A DNA stretch of 64,000 bases from Maricaulis maris MCS10. Lineage in GTDB: Bacteria > Pseudomonadota > Alphaproteobacteria > Caulobacterales > Maricaulaceae. This document shows positions 53,633-58,158 of the stretch, one piece after another. Under the pieces are notes generated by a model that had not been told where the DNA came from, searched no databases, and worked only from the letters and a program-made list of their open reading frames with translations. Both the position numbers and the translations under genes were made by a program. Within the stretch, counting starts at the first letter, position 1. Every line of letters starts with the position of its first letter. The stretch lies in contig NC_008347.1 of NCBI RefSeq assembly GCF_000014745.1, positions 2,558,001-2,622,000 of the forward strand, written 5' to 3'.

Positions 53633-53646
53633 TTGATAATTATCAA
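53633..53646. promoter_or_regulatory. FNR/FnrL-type box TTGAT-AATT-ATCAA
   Basis: A perfect match to the TTGAT-N4-ATCAA recognition site of FNR-family regulators, 67 bases upstream of the ubiT ATG. The half-site outer bases are exact. It predicts activation of ubiTUV under low oxygen, in agreement with the oxygen-independent role of these genes. Confidence 0.8.
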
Positions 53647-53713
53647 TTAGCGGGTGTATCGATGAGGTGACAAGGGCGTGAAACGTCAAAGCTCCCATAG
53701 AGATTCGCAAACC

Positions 53714-54250
53714 ATGCCAGCCCGACGAAACGTCCACGCCCGCCCTCGTCTGCCCAGCCTGCAGGACGTGCACTCGAGCCTCGTTCAGAGCGCATGCGGC
53801 GTCATGCTGTTGCCGCTGTCACTGGGACTGTCGGCCGCCTTGCGTCGGGTCCTCCACCAGCGGCCCGATGTCTTTGACCGGATGGACCTGTCGCAGCACC
53901 GGACCGTCTGCATCGTGCCAACGGACATGCCTGTCAGCTTCCAGATCTCGCTGGGAGGACTCGATCCGCGTGTCCGGGCCATCGCCTGCCGCGACACCCG
54001 GCCTAGCGATGCGAGGATTGAGGCGCCGATCCGGACCTTGATCAATGTCTTCGAAGGTCGCGAAGACGGCGATGCGGTCTTTTTCTCGAACGACCTGTGG
54101 ATCGAAGGCGACACCAGCCTGATTGTCGGCTTGCGCAATGCCCTGGAAGAGGCAGAGCTGACACTCGCCGATCTTCTCCCCCTGGGCCTTCCGATCCTGT
54201 CCGCCCGGCAAGCCGGACCTGACGATCCCTCCCGGCAAGGAGCACGATGA
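53714..54250 (+). CDS. ubiT: Ubiquinone accessory factor UbiT (SCP2 domain)
   Basis: About 178 residues with an SCP2 lipid-binding domain. The C-terminal region EGREDGDAVFFSNDLWIEGDTSLIVGLRNALEEAEL matches the UbiT signature (DxxFF...LxIEGDTxL). UbiT binds ubiquinone intermediates and serves oxygen-independent ubiquinone synthesis. I prefer ATG 53714 to the GTG at 53678: an FNR box at 53633 acting about 41 bases upstream of the transcript start would place that GTG at or before the RNA start. ubiU follows directly. Confidence 0.88.
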   Translation: MPARRNVHARPRLPSLQDVHSSLVQSACGVMLLPLSLGLSAALRRVLHQRPDVFDRMDLSQHRTVCIVPTDMPVSFQISLGGLDPRVRAIACRDTRPSDARIEAPIRTLINVFEGREDGDAVFFSNDLWIEGDTSLIVGLRNALEEAELTLADLLPLGLPILSARQAGPDDPSRQGAR

Positions 54251-55252
54251 ATGCAGCCTCCCCCATTCGAACTGGTGGCACCGGCCGGCACACCGGCAAC
54301 ACTCAAGGCGGCAATCCGCGCGGGTGCGGACACCGTTTACTGCGGCCTGCGTGACGAAACCAATGCCCGCAACTTCCCTGGTCTCAACTTCTCCGAAGCC
54401 GAGCTGAGGGACGCCGTCGAATTTGCCCATGCGTTCGGCGCCCGCGTCATTGTCGCCATCAATACATTCGCAGCCGCAGGGCATACAGGGCCGTGGAAAA
54501 ATGCTGTTCGCTGCGCCCGGGAGGCGGGCGCGGACGCAATCGTCGCCGCCGATATCGGTGTGCTTGACCATGCGGCAGAGCGCTATCCCGATCTGCGCCT
54601 CCACCTGTCCGTTCAGGCCGCTGCCGGGACTGCCGAGGCGGTCGAGTTCTACGCCCGCCGCTTTGGCGTCAAACGCGTGGTTTTGCCGCGCATTCTCAGC
54701 ATTCCCGAAATCGGCAACCTCGCCGCTGAGGTGAATGTCGAGATTGAAGCCTTTGCGTTCGGCGGCCTGTGCGTGATGACCGAAGGGCGCTGCCACCTGT
54801 CGTCTTTCGTCACCGGGCGGTCACCCAACCTGTCGGGCGTCTGCTCGCCAGCAGAGGCTGTCAGTTACACCCGCGATGCCGAGTACAAGTCAGCGCGACT
54901 GTCGGGCCTCACCATTCAACGCGAAAACCACAACAAACCAATCGGCTACCCGACCTTGTGCAAAGGCAAGTTCAGTGCAGGCGGCCAGACAGCGCACCTG
55001 TTCGAGGACCCGGTCAGTCTGAATACGCTCGACGTCCTTCCCGAGCTCGCCGATGCGGGGGTCACAGCCTTGAAAATCGAAGGGCGCCAACGCGGAAAGG
55101 CCTATGTCGAACGGGTCACCCGGGAGTTTCGCAACGCCATTGATCGGCTGATGGCAGGAGACAGCAATCGCGTGTCGCAAGCCGCGGCCTTGGACCACAT
55201 GACGGAGGGGCACCGGTCGACAACCGGCGCATACAGGAAGACGTGGCGATGA
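54251..55252 (+). CDS. ubiU: Oxygen-independent ubiquinone hydroxylation protein UbiU (U32 family)
   Basis: A 333-residue member of the peptidase U32 family. It starts FELVAPAGTPATLKAAIRAGADTVYCGL. Four cysteines that ligate a 4Fe-4S cluster in UbiU are visible at about 174, 181, 198 and 237 (GGLCVMTEGRCHLSSF, GVCSP, GYPTLCKGKFS). With UbiV it replaces the oxygen-dependent monooxygenases in hydroxylating the quinone ring; prephenate is the reported oxygen source. Its stop overlaps ubiV (ATGA). Confidence 0.94.
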   Translation: MQPPPFELVAPAGTPATLKAAIRAGADTVYCGLRDETNARNFPGLNFSEAELRDAVEFAHAFGARVIVAINTFAAAGHTGPWKNAVRCAREAGADAIVAADIGVLDHAAERYPDLRLHLSVQAAAGTAEAVEFYARRFGVKRVVLPRILSIPEIGNLAAEVNVEIEAFAFGGLCVMTEGRCHLSSFVTGRSPNLSGVCSPAEAVSYTRDAEYKSARLSGLTIQRENHNKPIGYPTLCKGKFSAGGQTAHLFEDPVSLNTLDVLPELADAGVTALKIEGRQRGKAYVERVTREFRNAIDRLMAGDSNRVSQAAALDHMTEGHRSTTGAYRKTWR

Positions 55253-56148
55253 CCGCACCCATTGAACTCACGCTCGGCCCCCTGTTTTTCAATTGGCCGG
55301 TCCAGACCCTGGCCGATTTCTACGCGCGCATTGCCGACGAATCCGTCATCAATCGCGTGTACGTGGGCGAGGTTGTGTGCGGCAAGCGCAGCCCGCTCGT
55401 GGAATCCACCCTGGTGGATGCCGCGGAACGGCTGGAACGCGCCGGCAAAACAGCGGTCTGGTCGACGCTTTGCTCGCCGACCAACAAGCGCGAAAGAAGC
55501 GCCACCGCATCCCTGTCCACCTTTGACGCCGAAATCGAGGTAAACGATATCGGCGCGCTGGCCGCGAGAAATGGAAGGCCTTTCACAGCAGGCCCGATGC
55601 TCAACATCTACAACGAGACCGCCCTCGCTGCGCTGCAGGATGAAGGCTGTACACGTTGGTGCCCGCCGGTTGAAATGTCACTCGCTGCGATCCGCGCCGT
55701 CCATGCCGCCCGCCCGGACATGCCGATAGAGGTGTTCGGCTTTGGTCGATTGCCACTGGCACATTCCGGTCGCTGCTACCACGCGCGATTTCACAGCCTC
55801 AACAAGGACAGTTGCCGCTATTTCTGTGAAGAAGACCCGGACGGAAAAACTGTCAGCACTGTCGACGGCGCCCCGTTCCTTGCCTTTAACGGCTTGCAGA
55901 CCCTGTCCGACGGCGTTCACCTGGCGACGACACCCTCGTTCGACCTGCGGCGCGTCGGCATCGCCGCGGTGCGTCTGTCACCACATTCGGTTGACATGGT
56001 TCGGGTCGCCGCAGCATTCCGGCATTTTCTAGACGATCAAATCGCTCCTTTGGAGCTCAAGAATTCGCTGAAAGCCGATGTACTCGACCGCCCCGTGATC
56101 AACGGATATCTCGGCGGGCGACCCGGGATGGAATGGTCGACGCAATGA
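55249..56148 (+). CDS. ubiV: Oxygen-independent ubiquinone hydroxylation protein UbiV (U32 family)
   Basis: The 299-residue partner of UbiU. Cluster cysteines at about 44, 176, 189 and 193 (GEVVCGKRSPL, SGRCYHARFHSLNKDSCRYFC) match UbiV. STFDAEIEVNDIGAL and FTAGPMLNIYNETAL are conserved family stretches. The start is the ATG at 55249 overlapping the ubiU stop, and its own stop overlaps the AroQ-type gene, so ubiU, ubiV and aroQ are translationally coupled; ubiT is immediately upstream. Confidence 0.94.
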   Translation: MTAPIELTLGPLFFNWPVQTLADFYARIADESVINRVYVGEVVCGKRSPLVESTLVDAAERLERAGKTAVWSTLCSPTNKRERSATASLSTFDAEIEVNDIGALAARNGRPFTAGPMLNIYNETALAALQDEGCTRWCPPVEMSLAAIRAVHAARPDMPIEVFGFGRLPLAHSGRCYHARFHSLNKDSCRYFCEEDPDGKTVSTVDGAPFLAFNGLQTLSDGVHLATTPSFDLRRVGIAAVRLSPHSVDMVRVAAAFRHFLDDQIAPLELKNSLKADVLDRPVINGYLGGRPGMEWSTQ

Positions 56149-56495
56149 CACGGTCTCCGCTTGATCGTGTCCGACAGGAAATAGACACCGTCGACGCGGC
56201 CCTGGTCAGCCTGCTGGCCCGGCGGCACCGCCTGGTGACCCGGGCGGCGCGACTGAAGTCGTCGTCAAACCTTGCTGTCGTCGATGCCAACCGTCAGGAG
56301 GCGGTGCTATCCAACGCCCGACGGTCAGCAGAACTGCACGGCCTGGCGATCGACCTCATCGATCGGATCTGGCCTGAAATGATCGACTTCTGGGTGACCT
56401 ACCAAAACAGCCTGTCCGACCAGTCGGGCATGCTGCCACCCGCGTCTGGCACCCGCCTCAACCAACTCGTTCAACCGCAGGAACCTCACCATTGA
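56145..56495 (+). CDS. AroQ-fold chorismate mutase / PchB-like lyase
   Basis: A 116-residue all-helical chorismate mutase II domain. DRVRQEIDTVDAALVSLLARRHRLV contains the active-site arginines, and a Lys near 38 and a Gln in TYQNSL follow. The loop reads VDANRQEAVL, so the Glu next to the Arg in E. coli mutase is displaced. The C-terminal ending IWPEMIDFWVTYQNSL resembles isochorismate-pyruvate lyase PchB. It is the fourth gene of the ubiTUV operon (ATGA overlap). It may form prephenate, the oxygen donor reported for UbiUV, or act as a lyase on chorismate. The 3' end overlaps convergent phoD by 38 bases. Confidence 0.82.
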   Translation: MTRSPLDRVRQEIDTVDAALVSLLARRHRLVTRAARLKSSSNLAVVDANRQEAVLSNARRSAELHGLAIDLIDRIWPEMIDFWVTYQNSLSDQSGMLPPASGTRLNQLVQPQEPHH

Positions 56496-58158
56496 CCGCC
56501 GGACGCACCCGCCACTGGCTCTCGATACCGGCCCGATAGTCGCGCGTGAGAATGTCGCTGACCTTGATAAACTCGGCATCAGCCGCGTCGCGGGTCAGGG
56601 TCAGGCGGATATAGCCGTGATCTTCCATGTTGCAGTGGCCGACATCGTCATTGGCCTCGACCATCAACTTCCCATAGTCAACGCCGGGCGCCTTGAAGCT
56701 GGAAAAGGGTGACGGGCTGGTCACCGAAGCCGCGACCAGCTCGGTGCCGACCCGGGTGCCGTCGCTATCACGCAGGTCGTTGGCCCAGAAGGAATGCACA
56801 TCGCCGGTGATGGTGATGATGTCGGCATCAACAGCGCGCAAAGCGGCGTAAAGACGCTCGCGCTCTGCAGGATAGCCATCCCACATGTCGAGACCGAAGG
56901 GGACGCCAAATCGCGTGCTCATGATGAAATTGCGGGCGAACTCACTGTTGCGCGTCGCCCACCACCGCAGCCAGCCGGGCATCTCGGTGGCAAAATTCGG
57001 GAAGTCGACGCGGCTCATGATGACCTGGTTGGCAAGGATGCGCCACGGCTTTCCGGCCGCCTTGGACGCCCCGCAGGCTGCCTGGATGTCGTCGATCTGG
57101 TCGCGCCCGAGAAGGGTCCGGCCTTCGTCGCCGATCACATCCCGCTTCCAGGCCGCGACAGCTTCCAGATTGGCCGGGTCCGTCTCGTCGGCGTCAGAGG
57201 CCAGCGGGAAAGTGTCCACCCCGACCTGTTCATCACGCGCAATCAACCGGCTTTCCAGCAGGCACAGCGTGGCCAGATCCCCGATCTCGAAATGACCGCG
57301 CCGCTGGCGCAAATCACCATCCGGCTCGCGAACCGGCTGCCAGTCATACCAGGCGCGCAGAGCCGCCTCGCGCCGGTCGGCCCAGGCGCCCTCGCTCTCG
57401 TCATGGTTTTCGGCGCCGTCACGCCACGCATCATTGGCGGTCTCGTGATCATCCCAGCTCAGGATCCACGGTGCCGCCGCGTGCAAGGCCTGCAGGTCCG
57501 GATCGGATTTATACTGGGCGTGCCGTTCGACATAATCCGCATGGCTGATGATTTCGTGCACGGGCGCGGGCACGCGGTTCATCGCCTCGGAATTTCCGGT
57601 CGCATACTGGCCGGCGCCATATTCGTAGAAATAATCACCCAGGTGCACGACCAGATCGAGATCGCCATTCTCGGCGGCTTCACGATAAACGTTGAAATGC
57701 CCGGCCGGGAAATTGGAACAGGAAAAAACCCCGATCCGGTATTGATCCAGCGCGCCTTCGGGCAGGGTTCGGGTGATGCCGACCGGTGAGTATTCGTCAT
57801 TCAGCCGGAAACGATAGAAATAACTCGCGCCCGGCTCCAGGCCAGTGGCCAGGATCTTTAGCGTGCCGAGCGGCTGGACCGTCACATAGGCGATCTCGCC
57901 TCCCTGCTCGAAGACAATATCGGTGAAGGCGTCGTCCCGCGCCACTTCAACACCGCGATAGCCGCCGCCATCATTGGTCAGGGCTGTCCACAACATCACG
58001 CTCGACTGATCCGGATCACCCGATGCCACGCCGTGATTGAAGCTGCCATTCTCGACCGGCTGGAACACATCCGGGGACTGCGAACAGGCGGAAACAGCAA
58101 GTCCGGCGCCCGCAGCCCCGATCAGGGCGGTCCGGCGTGTCAGATTGATCTTGCTCAT
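56458..58158 (-). CDS. phoD: PhoD-family alkaline phosphatase/phosphodiesterase
   Basis: 566 residues. A twin-arginine-type leader (NLTRRTALIGAAGAGLAVSAC) also contains a lipobox Cys, so it may be a Tat-exported lipoprotein. A Fn3-like N domain carries GVASGDPDQSSVMLWT. The metallophosphatase domain has SCSNFPAG, VVHLGDYFYEYGAGQ, SWDDHETANDAW, ITGDVHSFW and the conserved Arg/His pattern of PhoD. The enzyme uses Ca and Fe to release phosphate from esters and diesters. A TonB-dependent receptor gene lies upstream on the same strand (158-base gap). Confidence 0.93.
   Translation of the reverse strand: MSKINLTRRTALIGAAGAGLAVSACSQSPDVFQPVENGSFNHGVASGDPDQSSVMLWTALTNDGGGYRGVEVARDDAFTDIVFEQGGEIAYVTVQPLGTLKILATGLEPGASYFYRFRLNDEYSPVGITRTLPEGALDQYRIGVFSCSNFPAGHFNVYREAAENGDLDLVVHLGDYFYEYGAGQYATGNSEAMNRVPAPVHEIISHADYVERHAQYKSDPDLQALHAAAPWILSWDDHETANDAWRDGAENHDESEGAWADRREAALRAWYDWQPVREPDGDLRQRRGHFEIGDLATLCLLESRLIARDEQVGVDTFPLASDADETDPANLEAVAAWKRDVIGDEGRTLLGRDQIDDIQAACGASKAAGKPWRILANQVIMSRVDFPNFATEMPGWLRWWATRNSEFARNFIMSTRFGVPFGLDMWDGYPAERERLYAALRAVDADIITITGDVHSFWANDLRDSDGTRVGTELVAASVTSPSPFSSFKAPGVDYGKLMVEANDDVGHCNMEDHGYIRLTLTRDAADAEFIKVSDILTRDYRAGIESQWRVRPAVNGEVPAVERVG

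Follow-up and report, generated by a model that had tools for sequence, protein, structure and literature searches.

The closest described system to the locus studied here is the O2-independent ubiquinone pathway of ubiT, ubiU and ubiV (Pelosi 2019, PMC6747719). The available text of that paper includes a ubiT-ubiU fusion in Zymomonas, and that of PMC11707229 describes an FNR-type site for the pathway. According to the accessible part of a review (PMC11574389, citing Ferizhendi et al., PNAS 2024), prephenate is the reported oxygen donor of anaerobic ubiquinone synthesis. The U32 proteins TrhP and RlhA are also prephenate-dependent, as set out in the available text of PMC6599085, and in this they resemble UbiUV; unlike UbiUV, they hydroxylate RNA. 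For TrhP, the same text reports that tRNA hydroxylation was restored by added prephenate or by a PheA variant with chorismate mutase (CM) activity only. Term searches of the available text of PMC6747719, PMC11707229 and PMC10470549 found no CM gene. The window, a 64,000-nucleotide stretch of the 3.37 Mb single-contig genome of Maricaulis maris MCS10, has ubiT, ubiU and ubiV as well as an FNR-type site in common with the known pathway, and adds to them a fourth gene, a predicted CM. In another order, a CM domain is fused to UbiT. The kind of enzyme is known, and its recruitment into the anaerobic ubiquinone pathway, in two forms, appears to be new. In the literature searched, we found no report of a ubiTUV-linked or UbiT-fused CM, and none of the matches listed concerned, by title, a CM/SCP2/ubiquinone fusion.

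The gene set spans positions 53678-56495 of the plus strand, with ubiT, ubiU and ubiV contiguous and the AroQ gene last. The ubiT gene (53678..54250), the start codon of which is uncertain, encodes an SCP2-domain accessory factor that matched SCP2 and NF047962 (64.5 bits, cut-off 46.9). The two U32 family proteins, encoded by ubiU (54251..55252) and ubiV (55243..56148), matched NF047963 (499.9 bits, cut-off 440) and NF047965 (340.6 bits, cut-off 275), and the curated NCBIfam cut-offs were exceeded by all three. The fourth gene (56145..56495, plus strand) is an intact open reading frame (ORF), and its 116-residue product matched Pfam CM_2 (PF01817; 1.5e-17, 64 bits, cut-off 27), as expected for an AroQ-type chorismate mutase. 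The reading frame, the CM_2 match and the UbiT, UbiU and UbiV assignments confirm the original prediction of an AroQ gene in fourth place in a ubiTUV operon. Two ATG starts are possible, at 56133 and 56145. With the latter, the gene and the ubiV stop codon (56146-56148) overlap by four bases, ATGA, and this start was preferred because such an overlap is allowed in six of the eight genomes of the order, the window included, in which a CM gene is linked to ubiV. The CM gene overlaps the end of ubiV in all eight, by 8 and 16 bases in the remaining two. The operon ends at the AroQ gene, and the next ORF lies on the minus strand. This convergent frame (56458-58158), alkaline phosphatase D-like by eye, has a 38-base tail-to-tail overlap with the CM gene (56458-56495).

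A candidate FNR-type binding site, TTGATAATTATCAA, was predicted from a pattern match 5' of ubiT (53633..53646, plus strand). Within the 64 kb window, no other stretch matches the pattern TTGAYNNNNRTCAA exactly. Of the 15 linked operons scanned, only 4, that of the window among them, had an FNR-type site; the 15 include one locus (L253) with too little upstream sequence. The site points to putative FNR control of the operon. The AroQ gene and ubiT-ubiU-ubiV probably share a transcript and are probably coupled in translation.

The linkage recurred in other genomes. The survey of the order comprised 27 UbiV loci, of which 26 came from the genomes over the cut-off among 398, with one more added (G008). 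A CM gene was located directly 3' of ubiV on the same strand in eight of these 27, and no linked CM gene was found in the other 19. Among named UbiV loci, 80 were kept of the 419 found, and a CM gene adjoined ubiV in 14 of the 80. The 14 comprise Maricaulis salignorans, a Maricaulaceae MAG, Brevundimonas strains and MAGs, other Caulobacterales or Caulobacteraceae MAGs, and a MAG titled Bordetella. Five of them were already within the survey of the order, so that the pooled set contains 17 distinct linked proteins. Outside the order, no CM gene was found beside ubiV in 40 other alphaproteobacterial UbiV genomes, or directly 3' of ubiV at 76 further loci of the phylum, fetched out of 111 additional UbiV genomes. 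Co-occurrence with ubiTUV beyond the window, on which the original prediction partly turned, was thus found in both surveys. A chance neighbour is ruled out by these frequencies, by the 17 distinct linked proteins and by the UbiUV clade described below.

Some individual loci deserve mention. The ubiV-CM pair of the MAG titled Bordetella (L281) closely resembles the pair of Brevundimonas sp. 357 (pN 0.04 for UbiV, 0.08 for CM), and the MAG is possibly a mislabelled or contaminated bin. The ubiUV loci of Phenylobacterium, Caulobacter and Asticcacaulis (L240, L241, L255, L265, L268 and similar) are without a CM gene, which is present in Brevundimonas of the same family. A CM-containing ORF at L208 was rejected as a linked CM; it encodes a different, larger protein and lies on the opposite strand, about 6 kb away from ubiV.

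In a tree of UbiU+UbiV (58 rows), all eight linked loci fell within one clade of 12 (SH-aLRT 100). A clade made up of these eight alone was rejected by the same tree (AU p 1.6e-10). Because the clade also includes four rows without the CM gene, one gain followed by several losses is the simplest reading, which is not a proof. One member of the clade (G054) has an ORF that overlaps the ubiV stop codon (L037:2403-3785); its product of 460 residues is not a CM and by eye looks like an FAD-linked oxidase. Most of the ubiTUV operons sampled are without a CM gene, so the linked CM is an add-on that the ubiTUV pathway does not need. The CM tree placed the linked proteins apart from the main stand-alone group (99/99) and also, though with weak support (72/87), apart from the fused group. 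That the linked CMs arose once was neither shown nor rejected (AU p 0.31 and 0.24) in these short, long-branched trees. The linked CM is under purifying selection, with dN below dS in all nine close pairs of linked proteins, pairs that share sequences and are not independent. Each of the eight linked genomes carries three CM_2 genes, compared with one or two in the 19 UbiV genomes of the order that do not have the linkage. The three in the window genome encode a CM-prephenate dehydratase, a small stand-alone AroQ protein and the operon AroQ protein; the presence of the other two weighs against a dedicated role of the third, as does the scarcity of the linkage among ubiTUV operons.

A second form of the linkage was found outside the class of the window. 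Two phylum loci out of the 76 (L145 and L146) had their CM match within UbiT, as its N-terminal part. The order to which one of these fusion genomes belongs was searched with the fusion protein, and 89 of its 397 genomes matched (E up to 1e-12). The match spanned both the CM and UbiT domains in 58 of the 89, distributed over the families f218 (31), f197 (22), f240 (4) and f239 (1), and the remaining 31 matches covered the UbiT part with little or no CM part. Thirty of the 58 fusions were fetched, and every one matched both CM_2 and SCP2. R11, R28, K39, D48, R51, E52 and Q88, in the numbering of the E. coli CM domain (EcCM), were invariant in all 30. The model of one fusion (292 residues, mean pLDDT 82, pTM 0.54) consisted of an AroQ bundle and an SCP2 domain, the latter nearest to UbiJ (6h6p), with a low-confidence linker at 119-129. 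A loose FNR-like motif was present within 200 bases 5' of the fusion gene in 11 of the 30, a raw count. When plasmids were searched with the fusion, 19 records were returned, none covering 80% of it, and among the matches listed only the UbiT part was found. For the linked CMs and the fusions as one clade, the AU p value was 0.14, with 15 of the 30 fusions used and with CM trees that are short and long-branched. The two different linkages, operon and UbiT fusion, point to one role, the provision of prephenate for UbiUV.

We consider it probable that the operon gene encodes a pathway-dedicated AroQ chorismate mutase that gives prephenate to UbiU-UbiV. This role, one of the two first proposed for the gene, is supported by the conserved operon position, the retained active site and the CM-UbiT fusion. 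An AroQ CM co-expressed with UbiT-UbiU-UbiV under FNR control would turn chorismate into prephenate where and when UbiU-UbiV need an oxygen donor, and UbiU-UbiV would use the prephenate oxygen to hydroxylate the ubiquinone ring without O2. Phe and Tyr are also made from prephenate, and these two amino acids restrain the main chorismate mutases by feedback. A CM that shares the control of UbiUV could keep prephenate available during such restraint, and in this way the operon CM may contribute to ubiquinone. The demand of Phe and Tyr for prephenate also lends some weight to another, unlikely explanation, namely that the gene provides an anaerobically expressed spare CM for general aromatic amino acid synthesis and that its place in the ubi operon is a route to FNR control. 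Its absence from four of the 12 members of the UbiUV clade is in keeping with such a role. However, the spare enzyme would hardly account for two linkages to one pathway, an alphaproteobacterial operon and a UbiT fusion in another class, and two other CM_2 genes are present in all eight linked genomes.

The dedicated mutase is further supported by its predicted structure. The AlphaFold model of the window protein, built with 16 sequences (pLDDT 87), has the three-helix AroQ fold. Its best fold match was E. coli CM 5vht (E 4.7e-4, TM to target 0.90), and the comparison with 1ecm gave E 1.1e-3, TM to target 0.92 and rmsd 1.2; PchB ranked after E. coli CM. EcCM, the chorismate mutase domain of E. 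coli PheA (PDB 1ecm, AroQ class), has in common with the window protein both this fold and R11, R28, K39, D48, R51 and Q88, all six of which are present. The two differ in that EcCM is fused to prephenate dehydratase, whereas the window CM is encoded by a separate gene of the ubiTUV operon. The window CM also carries Gln at position 52, and at position 84 it has Trp in place of the Ser84 of E. coli CM. Glu52 is thus not present in the window protein, in which the Gln is followed by Glu, and it is kept in 4 of the 17 linked proteins. As described in the available text of PMC12329711, Glu52 contacts the 4-OH of chorismate and is typical but not universal, being found in 81% of an AroQ alignment, and Glu at this position is tied to high CM activity. 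The Gln52 and Trp84 of the window protein, and the scarcity of Glu52 among the linked proteins, weigh against the mutase reading. The linked proteins are 23-39% identical to the window protein, and an alignment inspected by eye showed ten residues invariant in all 17, including R11, R28, K39, D48 and R51. At position 88, 11 have Gln and six have Glu. Trp at position 84 occurs only in the two Maricaulis proteins, the other 15 having Ser or Cys. To judge from these residues, the window protein is predicted to have CM catalytic activity. A CCGC motif close to the C-terminus is present in six of the 17 linked CMs (L036, L041, L059, L262, L266 and L271, from Brevundimonas or Caulobacterales MAGs) and absent from the others; it might conceivably have a metal or redox role near UbiUV.

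The other role in the original prediction was that of a chorismate or isochorismate pyruvate lyase, suggested by PchB-like features of the protein. The resemblance to the isochorismate pyruvate lyase PchB (PDB 2h9d) and TIGR01803 CM-like stood in part. Both PchB and the window protein are stand-alone small AroQ proteins with an aromatic residue at position 84/87, Trp in the window protein and Tyr87 in PchB, and the best subfamily and PDB profile matches point the same way. The best NCBIfam matches were TIGR01803 CM-like (55.7 bits) and the isochorismate lyase NF005475 (49.6 bits), both under their cut-offs of 73.35 and 126. In PDB sequence searches PchB matched about as well as true CMs did, which weighs against the mutase reading: the single window protein gave 2.2e-5 for PchB versus 6.7e-5 for EcCM, and the profile gave 3.2e-14 versus 4.9e-13. 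According to the available text of PMC12329711, the PchB residues that differ from EcCM include Ala51 for Asp48, Val55 for Glu52 and Tyr87 for Ser84. This pattern was not found in the window protein, which has Asp, Gln and Trp at these sites; judged on sequence, position 48 would be mutase-like, 52 neither, and 84 PchB-like in bulk. The likeness does not extend to the CM-type Asp48, which is absent in PchB.

A lyase that supplies 4-hydroxybenzoate, for the ubiquinone head group, or salicylate is disfavoured, and we regard it as very improbable. The missing UbiC might seem to favour it, since neither UbiC (PF04345) nor PF01947 was found in any of the 23 genomes of the order searched. However, 15 of these 23 also have no linked CM gene, and because UbiC is equally missing from them, the CM gene does not track a missing source of 4-hydroxybenzoate. 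No isochorismate synthase was found in the eight linked genomes, in which the chorismate-binding enzymes found were TrpE-like and PabB-like only. The 16 chorismate-binding stretches, fragments to which curated cut-offs do not apply, were best matched by the models of TrpE (eight) and PabB (eight). In addition, Asp48 is invariant in the linked proteins where PchB has Ala, and the fusions keep the complete EcCM residue set. Just as improbable is an AroQ protein with little or no catalytic activity, one that binds chorismate or prephenate and acts as a regulator or scaffold of the UbiUVT complex; the fast divergence and the absence of Glu52 from 13 of the 17 linked proteins might be expected of it, but the invariant residues include substrate-holding ones, Lys39 among them, and the fusions keep all seven active-site residues.

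A dedicated mutase thus remains our preferred reading, and the fusion to UbiT suggests that its prephenate may be handed over directly to UbiUV. More tentatively, and with somewhat less than even confidence, CM could be a recurrent, physically integrated fourth component of the anaerobic Ubi complex. It would be a UbiV-coupled subunit in Caulobacterales-type bacteria and an N-terminal UbiT domain in another order. Prephenate would then be made beside the lipid-bound ubiquinone precursor and handed to UbiU-UbiV, and the oxygen-donor pool would be separated from aromatic amino acid synthesis.

Only recently has it been claimed that an organic molecule can donate the oxygen in a hydroxylation. 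A predicted prephenate-making enzyme in the operon, together with the UbiT fusion, provides independent genomic support for prephenate as that donor. Combined with this CM, ubiTUV would make a small set of genes with which the reaction could be reconstituted, prephenate source included.
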